Position numbers and translations under genes: made by a program. This document shows positions 53,935 through 61,780 of a DNA stretch of 64,000 nt, in pieces. Each line of letters opens with the position of its first letter. Positions within the stretch are counted from its first letter, which is position 1. Origin of the DNA: Pseudomonadota bacterium (lineage in GTDB: Bacteria > Bdellovibrionota > Bacteriovoracia > Bacteriovoracales > Bacteriovoracaceae); assembly GCA_027488375.1 (NCBI GenBank), contig JAIYBW010000001.1:124001-188000 (forward strand), read 5' to 3'. Under the pieces are notes generated by a model that ran no database searches, had not been told where the DNA came from, and saw only the letters and a program-made list of their open reading frames with translations.

Positions 53935-53962
53935 AATTTAGCCCAGGATGGGCGAGGTATCT

Positions 53963-56038
53963 ATGGATGGATTACTAGGTAAACTCAAAATTTTATCTCA
54001 AAATTCTGACCTTGCAATTGCATTGGGACTGATGATTGTTTTAGGTGTGATGGTTGTACCTATACCACCACTCCTTCTCGATCTTTTTCTGGCCCTCTCT
54101 ATTGCTGTTTCAGTAGCTATCCTTTTAGTTTCTGTTTATTCAAGAAAGCCTTTAGATTTTTCTACTTTCCCAACAGTGCTTTTAATAACAACTCTCTTGC
54201 GACTTTCTCTCAACGTTGCCTCGACTCGTAACATCCTTCTTCATGGGGCCACTGATGGGACTGCAGCTGCTGGAGAAATTATTAAATCCTTTGGTGAGTT
54301 TGTGGTGGGGGGAAATTACGCCGTCGGTATTATCATATTTATTATCCTTGTGGTTATTAACTTCATCGTTATTACAAAAGGTGCTGGGCGAGTGGCCGAA
54401 GTTTCAGCACGATTCACATTAGATGCAATGCCTGGAAAGCAAATGGCCATTGATGCCGACTTAAATGCAGGTCTTATTAACGAGGCCGAAGCAAAAAAAC
54501 GTCGAGCAGAAGTAGCACAAGAAGCAGATTTTTACGGATCGATGGACGGTGCTTCGAAGTTTGTTCGAGGAGATGCTATTGCAGGTATCTTGATTACAGC
54601 GATTAATATTGTGGGTGGTATCATTATTGGTGTTGCTCAAAATGACATGAATTTTTCTGATGCTGCTAAAACGTTTACACTCCTCACGGTAGGTGATGGT
54701 CTTATCGCTCAAATTCCAGCACTCATTATCTCTACTGCTGCAGGTATTATTGCTACCAGAAATTCAAACTCTGAAGCGCTTGGAAAACAAGTCGGAGAAG
54801 AATTTACGGCCCACCCTAAAGCTTTCTATATCACGGCAGGATCTCTGGCGATGTTTGGACTTATTCCGGGATTTCCTGGCCTTCCTTTCATGTTGATGGG
54901 TGGTCTTATTGCGTTTGCTGGATTTAAAATTGAAAAAAATAAAGAGCTGGCCAAAACTGCAGAGCAAACAAGCGCTGTTCAAGAAACAAAATCAAAAGCA
55001 GAAACTCTAGAATCTCTTCTTCCAGTTCAGCTGGTTCAACTAGAAGTCGGTTATGGAATTGTCAGTATTGTAGATGCAGAACAAAATGGCGATCTCCTAG
55101 AAAGAATTACACAAATTAGAAAACAATTTGCTCTCGATTGGGGTGTTATTATTCCTTCTGTTCAAATTAAAGATAATCTTGAACTTAAGCCCGGTGGCTA
55201 CTCAATTAAGATGAAGGGTGTCGAAATTGCAAAAGGCGAGCTCGTAGCTGATCATCTTATGGCCATGGATCCAGGAACAGTGATTGAGCAAATGGAAGGG
55301 ATTCCAACTAAAGAACCAGTATTCGGCCTTCCTGCGATTTGGATTACTGATGATAGAAAAGATGAAGCTCAATTTAATGGATATACAGTTGTTGATCTTT
55401 CTACCATCGTCGCAACACATTTAACTGAAGTCCTTAAAGCGAATCTAAGTGAACTCTTCGGAAGACAAGAGCTTGTGAAAGTTATGGATAACTTTAAAGA
55501 AGATAATCCAAAAGTTGTCTCAGATCTTGTCCCTGATATTATGACTTTAGGGACAGTTCTTAAAGTGCTTCAAAATCTTTTAAGAGAGGGTGTCTCTGTT
55601 AGAGATCTCAGAACAATTCTTGAAACTCTTGCTGAATTTGGTCCAAGTTCTAAAGATCCAGATGCCTTAACCGAGTATGCTCGCCAATCACTCTATCGTT
55701 CTATTACAGAGAAAATTAAAAACGGATCTGGTGAAGTCACTCTTTTCACTTTGGATCTTGGACTTGAGCAGGCCGTGGCGAGATCAATCATTCAGACCGA
55801 TGGTGGCTCACAACTTAATCTTGATCCTAAAGTCACTCAAACAATTCTTGCCTCACTCAATGAAAAAATTGAGGAAGCAACCTCTCAAGGTGAGAAGATG
55901 GTGGTCCTATGCAGCCCTGTAATTAGGAGACATTTCAAGAGGTTAACTGAGAAATTCATTCCCAACCTGATTGTGGTCAGTCATAATGAATTAAGTCCAG
56001 ATGTTAATATTAGATCACTAGGTACGGTGAGGTTATAA
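53963..56038 (+). CDS. flhA: Flagellar export protein FlhA
   Basis: ATG 53963 has GAGG 5 nt upstream (the longer ATG at 53948 has none), giving 691 residues. The membrane domain has the FHIPEP signature (RLSLNVASTRNILL, GKQMAIDADLNAGLINEAEAKKRRAEV), followed by the large cytoplasmic ring domain. It forms the nonameric export ring. The flhF start lies 3 bp after the stop. Confidence 0.97.
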   Translation: MDGLLGKLKILSQNSDLAIALGLMIVLGVMVVPIPPLLLDLFLALSIAVSVAILLVSVYSRKPLDFSTFPTVLLITTLLRLSLNVASTRNILLHGATDGTAAAGEIIKSFGEFVVGGNYAVGIIIFIILVVINFIVITKGAGRVAEVSARFTLDAMPGKQMAIDADLNAGLINEAEAKKRRAEVAQEADFYGSMDGASKFVRGDAIAGILITAINIVGGIIIGVAQNDMNFSDAAKTFTLLTVGDGLIAQIPALIISTAAGIIATRNSNSEALGKQVGEEFTAHPKAFYITAGSLAMFGLIPGFPGLPFMLMGGLIAFAGFKIEKNKELAKTAEQTSAVQETKSKAETLESLLPVQLVQLEVGYGIVSIVDAEQNGDLLERITQIRKQFALDWGVIIPSVQIKDNLELKPGGYSIKMKGVEIAKGELVADHLMAMDPGTVIEQMEGIPTKEPVFGLPAIWITDDRKDEAQFNGYTVVDLSTIVATHLTEVLKANLSELFGRQELVKVMDNFKEDNPKVVSDLVPDIMTLGTVLKVLQNLLREGVSVRDLRTILETLAEFGPSSKDPDALTEYARQSLYRSITEKIKNGSGEVTLFTLDLGLEQAVARSIIQTDGGSQLNLDPKVTQTILASLNEKIEEATSQGEKMVVLCSPVIRRHFKRLTEKFIPNLIVVSHNELSPDVNIRSLGTVRL

Positions 56039-56041
56039 AGA

Positions 56042-57592
56042 ATGTTCGTTAAGAAATTCGAAGCCGATACATTAGAAGAGGCCTTAAAAGCGGTCAAGTT
56101 AGAGCTTGGCCCTGATGCTATTATTCTTAAAACAATCACAAATAATGGTCTCAAGGGTGCTTTTAAAAAAAAGAAGATTGAAATAACAGCCGCTATATCA
56201 GAAAGAAGTTTTGAAAAAAAGTCAAAGGTGGATAAAGTGCTAAATGATGATCAAAAAGAAGCTTTTTATCAAAAACCTGCTAAATCAATTAAAGATACTA
56301 TTCATCAATATGCTGGTCCGGAAAATTCGATGCAATCAAATTCAGGAGCAGGGTATGGAAATATTGGACTTAATAAAGTTGTAAATACGATTGCTAAAGG
56401 TTCTGCTAGCCTGGCCGAGGTTACGACTAAAACGACTTCAATGATTAAGAATAGCCTCGATGAATTTCTCACTGATGGAGAAGAATCATCTTTTGATTTT
56501 GATTCAAATGATGTTGAACCAGTGATGGCAAAACCTAAGGCCACTCATGGTAAGTATTCAGAGCCACCATCTGAGAGAGTTTTAACTCAAAAATCTAATC
56601 AGGCTGCCTCTGCTCGTCCTACTCAGAATGAAACGACCTCATCTCCTAGAGAATATTCGCAACCAAATCAGCAAACACCTGCTCAATCTGTTTCACGTGA
56701 AGCTTATAATGAATTGCGCCAAGAGATGAAAACGCAACAGCATAAAATCGCTCTTCTCGAGCAAAAAATTTTAGAGCTCTCTCAAAATTATCAATTCAAT
56801 CAAAAACATCTCAATGAAGCTAATGGTCTTTTTCAGCTTCGGACGACTCTTAAAACTCTTGATGTGGATGAGTCACATATTTTGGATCTGATGAAAAAGG
56901 CCAATTATGAATTGGCCAAAGAGGATCTCGAAAATCCTGATGTGGTCTTTGAATTTGCACTCAAAGAAATGGCCGGATCCATTTTTACAGATATTCCGCT
57001 CTTTGCAAAAATCGGTAATGGGGAACCCGTAGTGACCATCCTCGTCTCAGAAGCAGCCTCGGGTCAAAGTTCCATGGGGATGAAAATTGCCGTCTTAAAG
57101 AAAGATGTCACACTGATCCAGTACTCTCAGGATGCTCAAAATTCTGCTAGTACTGACTTTGCTGCTCAGGTTTTTGGCATAAAATCGGAAAAGGTTCAAA
57201 ACTTTTCTGAAGTTGTCGGTCTCTGTCGTAAAGCTACAGAAGCAGGGAGGTCTGTCCTTGTGGATCTCCGTCTAAATACAAAAAATGGCGATGAAACAAA
57301 AAAATTCATTGAGACTATGAAACGTGGTTTCCATCATGTGGAAGTGCTAGGCACACTTTCGGCGATTCACTCAGAACTTTATAACAGAAAAATTATTGCC
57401 CGATATAAGGATATAATTGACGGTGTTATCATATCTCATGTGGACCTTTGTATGAACTTTGGGGCCCTCTTCAATGTTCATAAGGCCCACAATAAGTTGC
57501 CTCTCAAATTCTTTGGAACAGGTCCAGTAGTTCCGGATGATATTGAGGCAGCGACGGCCGAAAGATTAATGGCCGGTCTTTTTCAGTTCTAG
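56042..57592 (+). CDS. flhF: FlhF-type protein with degenerate GTPase motifs
   Basis: The 516-residue protein starts with the FlhF N-terminus (FVKKFEADTLEEALKAVKLELGPDAIILKT). A long low-complexity linker (140-220) and a coiled coil follow. The C-terminal NG-like domain keeps the FlhF end (FGTGPVVPDDIEAATAERLMAGLF). The GTP-binding motifs are missing. The P-loop position (336-344) reads SEAASGQSS instead of GPTGVGKTT, the DTAGR segment is VDLRLNT (407-413), and TKxD is SHVD (465-468). FlhF normally dimerises with GTP and sets flagellum position and number. Here it may be a non-GTPase version; the rest of the operon is intact. Confidence 0.88.
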   Translation: MFVKKFEADTLEEALKAVKLELGPDAIILKTITNNGLKGAFKKKKIEITAAISERSFEKKSKVDKVLNDDQKEAFYQKPAKSIKDTIHQYAGPENSMQSNSGAGYGNIGLNKVVNTIAKGSASLAEVTTKTTSMIKNSLDEFLTDGEESSFDFDSNDVEPVMAKPKATHGKYSEPPSERVLTQKSNQAASARPTQNETTSSPREYSQPNQQTPAQSVSREAYNELRQEMKTQQHKIALLEQKILELSQNYQFNQKHLNEANGLFQLRTTLKTLDVDESHILDLMKKANYELAKEDLENPDVVFEFALKEMAGSIFTDIPLFAKIGNGEPVVTILVSEAASGQSSMGMKIAVLKKDVTLIQYSQDAQNSASTDFAAQVFGIKSEKVQNFSEVVGLCRKATEAGRSVLVDLRLNTKNGDETKKFIETMKRGFHHVEVLGTLSAIHSELYNRKIIARYKDIIDGVIISHVDLCMNFGALFNVHKAHNKLPLKFFGTGPVVPDDIEAATAERLMAGLFQF

Positions 57593-57652: not shown

Positions 57653-58528
57653 ATGCACAAGACTAGTGAGTGGTTGCTTTCTTTTAGTTCAAATCAAAAA
57701 TTAAACTCTCGTAGTTTATCTCTCGAAGACTTTAGGCCCTGTACTAAGATTTCAATTACTGGTGGCAAAGGTGGGGTAGGAAAGACCTCTATTTCTTTAA
57801 AGGCTGCTCAAGAGCTAGCGAAATCTGGCCATAGAACATTACTGATTGATTGCGATTCAAATCTTTCAAATACGGCCATCAAATTAGGTTTACCTCTCGA
57901 TAATAAATTTGAAAAACTTCTTTCTGCTGAAGCAAGTTTTGAAGATGTACTCATTCAGCAAGGAAATTTTCACCTTCTACCGGCCTGTAATGGATCAATT
58001 TCTCTATTTGAAAGTAAATTAAATTTTGCCGAAATCATTATTGATATTATCAATTCTCACGAGCATGAGTATGACTATATTCTTCTCGATTGCCCTGCAG
58101 GTGTATCACGAGAAGCCCTAACACTTAATGCCTTTTGCGATTACCGTTGGGTTGTTGTCACTCCAGATAAGTCTTCAATCACTGATTCTTATTCTTTAAT
58201 TAAACTTTTACACAATCGCTTTGGTACAAAAGAAAACCACTTAATTGTGAATATGTTTCAAACTGAAAAACAAATGCAAAAAGTGGTTTCAACTCTGGGG
58301 CAAACGATTGAAAATTTCATCGGGATTAAGACTTCTTTCCTCGGTGGCGTGAAAAAAGCGGAAATTTCTGCCGATGGATTTGATACTTTTTTCCTATCTG
58401 AAACAAATAATGAATGGCAAAAAAACTTCGTTAAACTTTTATATGAGTTCACCGAAAAGAACGGTGGACCGATGGCCGCTCGATTACAGGGCACAAGCCT
58501 TATGGCCCATGAACACGATGTTCATTAA
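57653..58528 (+). CDS. flhG: FlhG/MinD-like ATPase
   Basis: ATG 57653 has AGGAGG upstream; 291 residues. Deviant Walker A GGKGGVGKTS (37-46, signature Lys39), LLIDCDSNLSNT and LLDCPAGVSREAL are as in MinD-type ATPases. The C-terminal FVKLLYEFTEKN may be the amphipathic membrane helix. The N-terminus (1-30) lacks the DQAxxLR motif that in other FlhG stimulates the FlhF GTPase. It limits flagellum number together with FlhF. fliA follows after 28 bp. Confidence 0.9.
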   Translation: MHKTSEWLLSFSSNQKLNSRSLSLEDFRPCTKISITGGKGGVGKTSISLKAAQELAKSGHRTLLIDCDSNLSNTAIKLGLPLDNKFEKLLSAEASFEDVLIQQGNFHLLPACNGSISLFESKLNFAEIIIDIINSHEHEYDYILLDCPAGVSREALTLNAFCDYRWVVVTPDKSSITDSYSLIKLLHNRFGTKENHLIVNMFQTEKQMQKVVSTLGQTIENFIGIKTSFLGGVKKAEISADGFDTFFLSETNNEWQKNFVKLLYEFTEKNGGPMAARLQGTSLMAHEHDVH

Positions 58529-58556: not shown

Positions 58557-59342
58557 ATGTCATCACTCACGGCCAAACTTAAAAATTTAAAAGACTACCG
58601 CTCTACAGTTGATCCTAAGGTCAAAGATGAAATAATTCTTGAATATGCTCCTCTTGTAAGATTTATTGCACAAAAGATTGCTTCAAGACTTCCACCAAAT
58701 ATTGAACTTGATGACATGATTTCTTGTGGTGTTATTGGTCTCATGGATGCCATTGAGAAGTTTGATCCATCTAGAGATAATAAGTTTAAAACTTATGCAG
58801 AATTCAGGATTCGTGGAGCGATTTTAGATGAACTTCGTTCTCAGGACTGGGTCCCTCGTTCTGTAAGAGAGAAGGCAAAAGTAGTTGAAAAAGCCTACGC
58901 AGCCCTAGAAAAAGATCTTGGTCGTCCAGCGACAGATGAGGAAATGTGCGAGCATCTCCAATGCTCAATGGATGAGTTCCATGAACTCATTAATAAATCT
59001 AAATCAGTGTCTTTATTAAATATTGAAGATGCTGCGGCCATGAGCAAAGGCGATAAGAAGCTTATGGTTTCCCTTATGGAAACTTCTCGCTCTGCCAATC
59101 CTCAGACAGCTGTTGGATATAAACGTGCCCAAGAAATTATAAAAGATGGCATTAAGTCACTTCCTGAGAAGCAAAGACTAGTTCTATCTCTTTATTACTT
59201 TGAAGATTTAAATTTAAAAGAAATTGGCCAGGTTTTAGATGTAACTGAGTCCCGAGTATCTCAACTTCATACTCAAGCGATCTTGAAGTTGAAAGCAAAA
59301 CTTCGTAACCAGTTTGAGTCTCACGAAGATATCGCTAGCTAA
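58557..59342 (+). CDS. fliA: Flagellar sigma factor FliA (sigma28)
   Basis: The 261-residue sigma factor has region 2 (EYAPLVRFIAQKIASRLPPNIELDDMISCGVIGLMDAIEKFDPSRDNKFKTYAEFRIRGAILDELRSQDWVPRSVR), typical of the FliA/WhiG group. Region 3 follows, and region 4 has FEDLNLKEIGQVLDVTESRVSQLHTQAILKLK. It directs transcription of late flagellar genes. It is the last gene before the terminator. Confidence 0.97.
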   Translation: MSSLTAKLKNLKDYRSTVDPKVKDEIILEYAPLVRFIAQKIASRLPPNIELDDMISCGVIGLMDAIEKFDPSRDNKFKTYAEFRIRGAILDELRSQDWVPRSVREKAKVVEKAYAALEKDLGRPATDEEMCEHLQCSMDEFHELINKSKSVSLLNIEDAAAMSKGDKKLMVSLMETSRSANPQTAVGYKRAQEIIKDGIKSLPEKQRLVLSLYYFEDLNLKEIGQVLDVTESRVSQLHTQAILKLKAKLRNQFESHEDIAS

Positions 59343-59397: not shown

Positions 59398-59494
59398 TTT
59401 GCCCCCACGTCTGCCCCTATGTGTTTTAAGCTTTTCAATGCGTCAGCATTTATCAGAGAATTAAATATTGATCTTCTCAAATAAAGGGTGCGAT

Positions 59495-61780
59495 ATGGAC
59501 TGGAAAAGAACTTTTACTCAAGGACAATTTGCCATACATACATTTTTTGTTATTGGGATACTCGCAACAACAGGTGCTACTCTTTATTCTTTTAGAATGG
59601 GGAATATGCAAAAAGTTGAAGAGCAACAAATTCTTAAAGTAAACCAACTCACGCAAAATATAAAACAAGATAAAAGTTTTGATAAGATTACTAAATTTCT
59701 CTCATGGGCAGAGGCGAACAAGGCCCATGAACTCATGAAAGAGTTTCATAATAAAATTGCAAGTACAGAGGAGATTCTTGAAATTAAAGTCTCTAAAGAT
59801 CTTGCTAAAGAAATGACAAAGTTTGATGAGCTCATTAATTTGAATTCAGGACTGAGTAGCCCTGATGATGTTCTCAAAATATTGAAACAAAAAGTCAAAA
59901 ATCTTGAAGATCTATCAAAACAAAAAAAATACCGTTCAGTTGAATCAATATCTTCAAAAATGACGGAACGTCTTAATAATTTAAATACAAAGAATGTAGG
60001 ATCTTCAATTCAAGTAAATTATCTTAAAAGTGATATCGCCCAATTAAATTCTATTGTCGAAAAGTCAACAATTGAAGCTTCTGAAAAAGCAGGTCTCCAG
60101 AATCGTTTTTCATCCATGACTAATGAACTTGAATTACTTTCGAATTTGAATAATCAATCTCGAAATTTAAAAATGAGTGCGAATCAAGCCAATCTTGCAT
60201 TGGCCAAATGGATGAAAGATGTTGATAAGAAGGCTTTAAGTTTTAAAAATATACGAGTTCAAAAACAAAACAATCTTATCATCATGCTTTCGAGTGTTGT
60301 AGCCTTTCTTGTCTTATCTTGGATGGGAATGGCCTATCTATTTAGATGGCAAAAACAAAAAATTTCAACACAGCTTGAAGGGGAAGTTAAATCAGTTATC
60401 TCAAATGGTATTTTAAATGATCAGCGTTATATGATTGATCAATATACTGATGTAACGAGAGCTGAAATTATCGCTCTCATGGATGGATTAAAAGTAAAGC
60501 TTAATCTTGGAACACTTCTTCATGAGGGATTACCATTTGCTGGTTGCATGATTGATCACAATTTTAAGCTTGTATGGCATAATCAATTATTTCTTGATCA
60601 ACTTTACTTGAGTGATGAAGAAGTTCGATCTGATGCTTTCAATTGGGACTATGTTCGAGATTATCTCAACTTAGATCAAGACCCGATCTATCAAGCACTC
60701 GTTAATAAAATTGCAGGAATTTATCCTGTGAAAATTAAGCAAGACGAGCTTTCACCTTCTCTTCCATATGAAATGTACGTGACCCCTGTTGTGGCCAATA
60801 GAGAAGAAAGAGTGATGGTCTTTCTTTATCCACTGGTTTCAGTTAAAGATGCTATTAACGAACAAGTTAATGTTTCTCAGAATGCGATGGTTCGGTTTAT
60901 TGAACTTTGGAATGCTGAAAGATTAGATGAAGACGAGCTTGGTCTGCTTGAGAGAGATTTCTCAAATAATGATTTAAAAAACCTATATGTTGAGTTGCAC
61001 CAAGTGTTTAATCGAGTCACTGATGAGAAAGTCGAATATCTTCACACTATAAATAGTCTTGAAAAAGAAAATAGTGAGCTCAAAGAAAAAATCAAATTTA
61101 TGGAAGAATTTGAAGCTGAAAGGAAGTTTATCGTTAAGGATGAAGCTCGAATTGCTAGTGAATTAAAGCATTCCTTTGTGACTAATATTGAATCGAATGA
61201 GTCCTTAATTCAAATTAACAAAACAATTTTACAGCAATCCGATGATCTTAAAAATGAAGCCCATCGTTTGCATCTTGTTTCTCAGGAAGCATTGAAGAGG
61301 GCCAAGGAATCTGGCGAGATTATTCACCAACTTGAATCCATGAAAGGGGAGTATAAAAAATTAAAGTTTGAATTAATGGAAATTAAAGTGAAATTAATTT
61401 CTATGAATAATTCACTGCTTGGACAACTCCCAGCTTTGGATGAAAATCAACAAAAACTAGCAACTCGCTATAAGGATGAGTTAGCACGTTTGGATTTTAC
61501 TGTTGCAGCCTTTGACAAAAAACTTATGCAGCTCGATGTTCAAATTTCTAAACTTTCTATGATTCATGAGAAGTTGCCATCTGAGCAGATTTCTTTTTCA
61601 TTCCAGACAACCCAAAAAGACCATGAAGTTCGTGAAGCTTTGATTGACGTCCAAAAGAGACTAAATATTGAAGAAGGGCGAGTGCTTGAAAATTTTAAAA
61701 GCCTATTCTCGCTTTTAAAAAAGGAATATAAATCTGAAAGGATGGTCACGAATTCAAATAGTGATCAATTTCTATCCTGA
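59495..61780 (+). CDS. Membrane coiled-coil protein with PAS-like segment
   Basis: ATG 59495 has AAGGGTG upstream; 761 residues. A membrane helix at about 12-33, a long helical periplasmic part, a second helix near 270-290, then a PAS-like segment (LHEGLPFAGCMIDHNFKLVWHNQLFLDQLYLSDEEV...FNWDYVRDYLNL) and about 350 residues of coiled coil. The layout resembles a chemoreceptor, but I see no methyl-accepting hairpin signature and no HAMP I could call. It follows the flagellar operon behind its own terminator; the coupled pseudouridine synthase gene is unrelated in function. Confidence 0.68.
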   Translation: MDWKRTFTQGQFAIHTFFVIGILATTGATLYSFRMGNMQKVEEQQILKVNQLTQNIKQDKSFDKITKFLSWAEANKAHELMKEFHNKIASTEEILEIKVSKDLAKEMTKFDELINLNSGLSSPDDVLKILKQKVKNLEDLSKQKKYRSVESISSKMTERLNNLNTKNVGSSIQVNYLKSDIAQLNSIVEKSTIEASEKAGLQNRFSSMTNELELLSNLNNQSRNLKMSANQANLALAKWMKDVDKKALSFKNIRVQKQNNLIIMLSSVVAFLVLSWMGMAYLFRWQKQKISTQLEGEVKSVISNGILNDQRYMIDQYTDVTRAEIIALMDGLKVKLNLGTLLHEGLPFAGCMIDHNFKLVWHNQLFLDQLYLSDEEVRSDAFNWDYVRDYLNLDQDPIYQALVNKIAGIYPVKIKQDELSPSLPYEMYVTPVVANREERVMVFLYPLVSVKDAINEQVNVSQNAMVRFIELWNAERLDEDELGLLERDFSNNDLKNLYVELHQVFNRVTDEKVEYLHTINSLEKENSELKEKIKFMEEFEAERKFIVKDEARIASELKHSFVTNIESNESLIQINKTILQQSDDLKNEAHRLHLVSQEALKRAKESGEIIHQLESMKGEYKKLKFELMEIKVKLISMNNSLLGQLPALDENQQKLATRYKDELARLDFTVAAFDKKLMQLDVQISKLSMIHEKLPSEQISFSFQTTQKDHEVREALIDVQKRLNIEEGRVLENFKSLFSLLKKEYKSERMVTNSNSDQFLS

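Follow-up and report, generated by a model that had tools for sequence, protein, structure and literature searches.

FlhF is described as a GTP-dependent dimer, with an FlhG-driven GTP cycle setting the place and number of flagella; canonical FlhG stimulates FlhF via a glutamine in its N-terminal DQAxxLR helix, and SRP GTPases act as pairs that share their sites (PMC12826062). In Shewanella, the B domain of FlhF is necessary and sufficient for FliG binding, with the start of the domain contacting FliG, the NG-HubP contact is affected by neither GDP nor GTP, and FlhG action on FlhF controls FliG-FliM/N assembly (PMC11236974). In Pseudomonas aeruginosa, FlhF and FliG form a complex in the presence of GMPPNP, and GDP disturbs it (PMC12713375). 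In Vibrio, the R334A variant, which is without GTPase activity, indicates that hydrolysis can be dispensable for localization, and with mutants losing GTP binding localization or flagellation fails (PMC6092412). From these Vibrio, P. aeruginosa and Shewanella results, nucleotide control usually matters. Point mutants of FlhF without GTPase activity are reportedly also the subject of work by Schniederberend in 2013. Among GTPases of the eukaryotic Ras type, the class i pseudoGTPases, including p190RhoGAP pG1/pG2, CENP-M and fungal dynein LIC, have non-enzymatic roles (PMC5593906).

The window, i.e. the entire 64,000-nucleotide stretch of DNA analysed here, has the gene order flhA-flhF-flhG around 56042-57592, with the following genes.

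53948..56038, + strand: flhA (TIGR01398, 900 bits)
56042..57592, + strand: flhF, putative pseudo-GTPase form, 516 aa
57653..58528, + strand: flhG, MinD-type ATPase with KGGVGKT and without DQAxxLR; likely ATG start (the mechanical ORF runs from GTG 57608)
58557..59342, + strand: fliA-type sigma factor (TIGR02479), the homologue of which in the genus g51 still lies beside flhF
59468..61780, + strand: 770-aa protein with one hydrophobic segment, 3' of fliA; a distant homologue follows fliA in g51

The flhF frame (56042-57592) is open throughout, with zero internal stops. Its TIGR03499 N-terminus, the FlhA on one side and, on the other, a MinD-type ATPase placed where FlhG is expected, with a FliA-type sigma factor next in line, bear out the identity and the place between flhA and flhG that an earlier, sequence-only reading had assigned to it. 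From about 47.8 kb to flhA the window also encodes FliP, FlhB and FlhA as identified by family search, and FliL, FliM, FliN and others as identified by eye; FliG is present in the same genome. Within the class, which we take to be Bacteriovoracia, FlhA and FlhG generally flank flhF: outside g51, same-strand FlhA is found at 138 of 141 loci and same-strand FlhG at 138 of 142, some loci sharing one genome. The 770-aa protein (59468-61780) has zero Pfam or NCBIfam matches over cut-off, and a similar protein was detected at 31 of the 73 class loci with room for it, which is probably a lower bound.

Residues 1-87 of FlhF match TIGR03499 positions 1-91 (E 6.7e-15), and the B domain, whose residues 1-60 have a mean column entropy of 0.72 bits, is better conserved in the class alignment than any other domain. 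The complete protein scores 55.8 bits against TIGR03499, below the equivalog cut-off of 174.15 bits, and its Pfam SRP54 match is restricted to residues 402-514. An AlphaFold2 model (mean pLDDT 74.6) has high pLDDT across residues 261-490 and the greater part of the B domain, and low pLDDT in the linker (94-216) and at the C-terminal end (about 491-516). The top Foldseek match of the model is the Shewanella putrefaciens FlhF-GDP structure 8r9r (E 2.4e-11, target TM 0.74), followed by Ffh and FtsY structures, with Bacillus subtilis FlhF at rank 13; the NG domain is thus predicted to retain the SRP-GTPase fold. Hemagglutinin HA2 matches in the profile search, at profile positions 171-291 (read as the linker and N-domain helices), were taken as coiled-coil noise. 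Compared with canonical FlhF (B. subtilis 2px0/2px3, S. putrefaciens 8r9r; TIGR03499), the B domain, linker, predicted NG fold, G5 region and place between flhA and flhG are the same, whereas the G1 to G4 motifs are replaced in the class and class FlhG is without DQAxxLR. The regions concerned are as follows.

56042..56311, + strand: N-terminal B domain, residues 1-90 (TIGR03499 match, residues 1-87)
57047..57073, + strand: altered P-loop SEAASGQSS, residues 336-344
57065..57067, + strand: Gln342, replacing the Walker-A lysine in 108/108 class proteins covering the position
57257..57280, + strand: G3 equivalent LVDLRLNT, residues 406-413; Asp408 retained, Gly and Arg gone
57359..57391, + strand: class-specific motif SAIHSELYNRK, residues 440-450 (mean entropy 0.66 bits)
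57434..57445, + strand: G4 equivalent SHVD, residues 465-468; Asp in 109/109, Lys gone in 107/109
57500..57565, + strand: G5 region PLKFFGTGPVVPDDIEAATAER, residues 487-508, retained and well conserved

Rereading of the sequence confirmed the residues first quoted for this protein, namely SEAASGQSS (336-344), VDLRLNT (407-413) and SHVD (465-468). The accompanying claim that every nucleotide motif is changed holds for G1, G3 and G4, which are replaced, but not for Asp408, Asp468, the glycine preceding the Walker lysine and the G5 region, which are kept. In a profile alignment against B. subtilis FlhF (2px0) the class consensus GQSSM aligns with GKTTT and SHLD with TKID, and the length of the P-loop is unchanged in alignment with other FlhF proteins. 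We inspected 109 distinct proteins of the Bacteriovorax/Halobacteriovorax group, with no pair 99% identical, rather than the copy of every genome. At the Walker-A position 108 of these have Gln and one truncated piece has a gap; the preceding Gly is retained in 107/108, the sole exception (ASAQFS) being FlhF of L161 in genome G065. At position 336, 106 proteins have Ser and 2 have Gly, Ser/Thr343 is present in 105/108, Asp408 in 108/109, and Asp468 and Lys348 each in 109/109. The G4 lysine position holds His in 75 proteins, Asn in 17, Tyr in 10, Lys in 2 (L136 and L152) and other residues in 5. Six G-domain positions are invariant class-wide (Q342, K348, D468, P487, G494 and D500), and the G2 equivalent, at 2.99 bits, varies more than the other five motif stretches measured. 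As judged from this alignment, the nucleotide site is remodelled, not eroded, with Gln342, Lys348 and Asp468 invariant.

The altered protein is widespread among relatives. In the relatives search 47 of 58 genomes matched, the source genome included; within the genus 26/26 genomes match, 23 of them across residues 1-516, the 25 relatives being 67-89% identical. Matches were found in 101 of 110 genomes in the family search and 119 of 129 in the class search, all 129 class genomes bearing one family label. In another collection, the best 80 of 207 related loci are mostly from Bacteriovoracaceae, Bacteriovorax and Halobacteriovorax(-aceae), with some of broader label (Bdellovibrio sp., Oligoflexia, Proteobacteria). 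FlhF of other families in the phylum has the Walker lysine in 39/39 distinct proteins, and GK[TS] at 42/42 loci. A tree with 14 class rows and 39 rows from elsewhere separates the class on a single branch (support 100/100, stem 2.65 changes per column), although it carries a long-branch warning and places the sister group of the class weakly; the motif change arose on one branch.

Ordinary decay of a dispensable gene, or sequence error, would explain the motif loss itself and accords with the few broken or cut class copies, which have an in-frame TAG in G097 and a TGA beside masked bases in G012. The data contradict this explanation, and we consider it extremely improbable: the majority of class copies run full length without interruption, the substituted residue never varies, and over the 23 genus members the G domain has a mean pN/pS of 0.125, the altered P-loop 0.089, the G5 region 0.035 and the linker 0.41, ratios that are rough because pS is near saturation. 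The gene evolves under purifying selection, as had been proposed when the change was first described as selected loss, and the genus-wide matches and low pN/pS leave no room for local accident or chance. The possibility raised with that proposal, that relatives would have normal motifs and a frameshift would be found here, does not apply, since relatives share the change.

A canonical second FlhF, also raised by the sequence-only reading, was found neither in the source genome nor in the class, as far as tested. In the source genome, which is 91% complete, all 50 first-look candidates were scored and none proved to be one; the SRP54 (PF00448) matches are two strong canonical genes, the window flhF and one weak match (L004), which is a KGGVGKTT ATPase rather than an FlhF. 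The two strong genes are presumably Ffh and FtsY. Among the matches listed, TIGR03499 is over cut-off in 0/129 class genomes, several of which are 98-100% complete, with 17 candidates scored per genome; in a phylum sample it is over cut-off in 55 of 144 genomes and in 0 of the 34 class rows. The TIGR03499 failure is weak evidence alone, because only 55 of the 110 non-class sample genomes pass, and some non-class FlhF proteins below the cut-off still have a P-loop. Two class-type FlhF copies (G129:C1:215374-216843 and G129:C20:46016-47473) were observed in G129, a genome with 9% contamination. The presence of these two strong SRP GTPase genes, together with the shared-site pairing of SRP GTPases (PMC12826062), would allow pseudo-FlhF to pair with Ffh or FtsY instead of itself, the other GTPase completing a composite site; we regard this as very improbable.

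Parts of the GTP circuit are eroded elsewhere in the phylum, because the G4 lysine is gone as well in a further Bdellovibrionota family, f6, which we guess to be Bdellovibrionaceae. All 7 distinct f6 FlhF proteins aligned are without it, having TSLD, TGLD, SGLD or NDLD instead (loci L044, L186, L189, L192, L193, L195 and L196), and the f6 FlhG examined is, as in the class, without DQAxxLR. In contrast with the class, f6 FlhF keeps the P-loop, GP[AS]G[SA]GKTS, and the G2 region, so GTP binding by f6 FlhF stays plausible. Stepwise loss via f6 finds no support, as the tree does not place the class beside f6.

FlhG of the class is itself altered. DQAxxLR occurs in 0 of the 98 distinct class FlhG proteins readable before the P-loop, whereas a Trp-Leu pair lies at most 75 residues before the P-loop in 96/98 (96/99 counting L026; FlhG of L151 is masked). 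In the window this pair is as follows.

57671..57676, + strand: Trp-Leu of the new N-terminal FlhG motif (MHKTSEWLLSF)

In 87 of the Trp-Leu-bearing class FlhG proteins, the distance from the pair to the P-loop is 19-42 residues and a Met lies at most 16 residues upstream of it. The window FlhG has its deviant Walker A motif, KGGVGKT, intact; a model of it, built from 45 rows chosen for having Trp-Leu, has residues 2-9 as a helix of low confidence (pLDDT 54, residues 1-10) on a disordered linker. Outside the class, DQAxxLR is present in 10 of 24 distinct FlhG proteins and absent in 14, Trp-Leu is present in 0/24, and the FlhF proteins paired with these 24 all keep the P-loop GK[TS]. Since 14/24 non-class FlhG proteins are also without DQAxxLR, its loss is too unspecific to be attributed directly to the change in FlhF. 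The case for the 440-450 motif of FlhF as an FlhG docking site is likewise weakened: the motif is not an FlhG dock alone, because g51 keeps it without a neighbouring FlhG. It is missing from FlhF of L038, where FlhG is without Trp-Leu, and from that of L039, where there is no adjacent FlhG.

Some individual FlhG and FlhF proteins depart from the class pattern. At L026:3163-3939, FlhG of G002 has the P-loop AGSPGSGKT and is without Trp-Leu, FlhF of G002 being class-typical. At L039:2419-4774 (reverse-complement coordinates) in G026, FlhA is present and flhF is followed directly by fliA, without FlhG; FlhF there has Asn at 408 as well as lacking the 440-450 motif. Canonical FlhG is reported to have a membrane-targeting sequence at the C-terminal tail position; the class FlhG C-terminus is often of an EQEV/EHDV type (consensus EQEV; window 58505-58528).

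We favour, with a probability of about 0.6, the reading that class FlhF is a pseudoGTPase, most likely a polar scaffold uncoupled from nucleotide, and that the nucleotide switch still in place is FlhG. On the basis of the sequence, class FlhF would neither bind nor hydrolyse GTP. With the DxxG glycine and the phosphate-binding lysine replaced, and the G4 lysine too in nearly every protein, FlhF would be uncoupled from the GTP cycle; the B domain would grip FliG and, through FliG, also FliF, and the NG domain would grip a polar partner. FlhG, with its ATPase motif intact in the window and its activating motif lost, would remain as the nucleotide switch, touching FlhF or its partner through the new N-terminal Trp-Leu motif. 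We infer the scaffold action, the role of Trp-Leu as a contact and the identity of any polar partner; in a search for FipA (DUF2802) the control was silent. A single polar sheathed flagellum is reported for Bacteriovorax stolpii and B. starrii (PMC7175336), and a single polar flagellum for Bacteriovorax sp. As-1 (PMC12642874), so placement and number work in Bacteriovorax members, which suggests that placement can work without canonical FlhF GTPase chemistry. It is from these members, together with the contacts of the B and NG domains described in Shewanella, which a scaffold free of nucleotide could keep, that a pseudoGTPase scaffold with control left to FlhG is favoured. The class differs from the GTPase-dead FlhF mutants, each of which carries one change made in the laboratory, in a protein believed to have kept its GTP binding. 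It also differs from the class i pseudoGTPases, in that the latter are of the eukaryotic Ras type with nucleotide non-binding measured or supported (PMC5593906), whereas class FlhF has a bacterial SRP-type domain predicted not to bind nucleotide.

The nucleotide control seen in Vibrio, P. aeruginosa and Shewanella counts against the scaffold reading, as does the retention of Asp408, Asp468, Lys348 and Ser/Thr343, which a plain scaffold need not keep. Invariant Gln342 is the strongest reason for doubt, because something selects for it, and it is not obviously needed by a constitutive scaffold. Because the pocket appears remodelled and frozen, an altered ligand or residual nucleotide binding is conceivable; it may be that the pocket is still occupied, with GTP, GDP or another ligand bound in a new way by Gln342, Asp408, Asp468, Lys348 and Ser/Thr343, and that FlhF still switches. 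The kept P-loop length, and the fact that three of the six invariant G-domain positions (Q342, K348 and D468) lie in or beside the old pocket, with D408 in 108/109, would fit such a site, but the G1 lysine, the G4 lysine (in 107/109), the DxxG glycine and the G2 motif are lost together, the G2 equivalent is highly variable, and the activator motif of FlhG is absent. On balance we consider an occupied, switching pocket unlikely.

If the pseudoGTPase scaffold reading is true, a class without a canonical GTP site separates the tether role of FlhF from the contribution of GTP, and provides a natural experiment in what the FlhF/FlhG circuit cannot do without. Bacteria would then have an SRP-family pseudoGTPase, with the GTP-binding signature lost across a bacterial group with known predators and a single polar flagellum seemingly placed without the usual switch. 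In what was mainly openly accessible literature, we found no report of class FlhF as a pseudoGTPase or of an SRP-family pseudoGTPase in bacteria. The class-wide extent, the single-branch origin, the missing FlhG activator motif and the presence of pseudo-FlhF in a genus where FlhA was not found go beyond the sequence-only reading.

That genus, g51, is probably without a flagellum. In genome-wide searches, which covered FlhA and FlhG, FlhA was not found in any of its four genomes (99, 98, 94 and 88% complete), and the best FlhG-model matches were 1.4e-20 or weaker; FlhG proteins adjoining flhF in G016, G027, G028 and G109 match the same model at 2.5e-56 or stronger. Pseudo-FlhF is nevertheless retained in three of the four genomes, G128 showing none, and at all three loci (L200:9544-13570, L201:10541-14434 and L202) flhF is adjacent to a fliA homologue directly 3' of it, without export-gate genes and with no FlhG after flhF. 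Homologues of the window genes at 43.1-47.6 kb lie just 5' at all three loci, so the window stretch from about 47.8 kb to flhA is missing from the syntenic place. For FlhF, pN/pS is 0.14 in the closest g51 pair and 0.42-0.43 in the two more distant pairs; for FliA the corresponding values are 0.03 and 0.15-0.17.

The persistence of an adjacent pseudo-FlhF and fliA, syntenic with the window and with low pN/pS in the closest pair, where FlhA was not found (4/4 genomes) and no FlhG follows flhF (3/3 loci), could mean that FlhF now serves something different from flagellar placement, for example cell polarity or FliA regulon control, its place in the operon being a relic. We think this improbable for the class, given that FlhA and FlhG accompany flhF on the same strand at nearly all other loci, that conservation is highest in the B domain, and that 9 of the 10 class genomes without a pseudo-FlhF match are also without an FlhA match. 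Six of these nine are <89% complete, G128 of g51 being among them, and since completeness across the ten spans 56 to 99% some of the FlhF and FlhA absences may be gaps; the tenth genome, G148, has an FlhA match across model positions 3-608 of 678. A wider form of the scaffold reading takes in g51: the FlhF/FlhG switch of the class would be rewired, FlhF being a polar scaffold free of nucleotide whose pocket is rebuilt and frozen, all nucleotide switching having passed to FlhG via Trp-Leu, and a further role having let the scaffold outlive the flagellum in g51. This extension is tentative, and we hold it to be doubtful as a whole.

At the g51 loci flhF is preceded by a gene of 169-173 aa, the 173-aa form of which has zero significant family or window matches. 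The g51 homologue of the 770-aa protein was not found in L201 at 1e-6 and is present in L200 and L202, with 22% identity.
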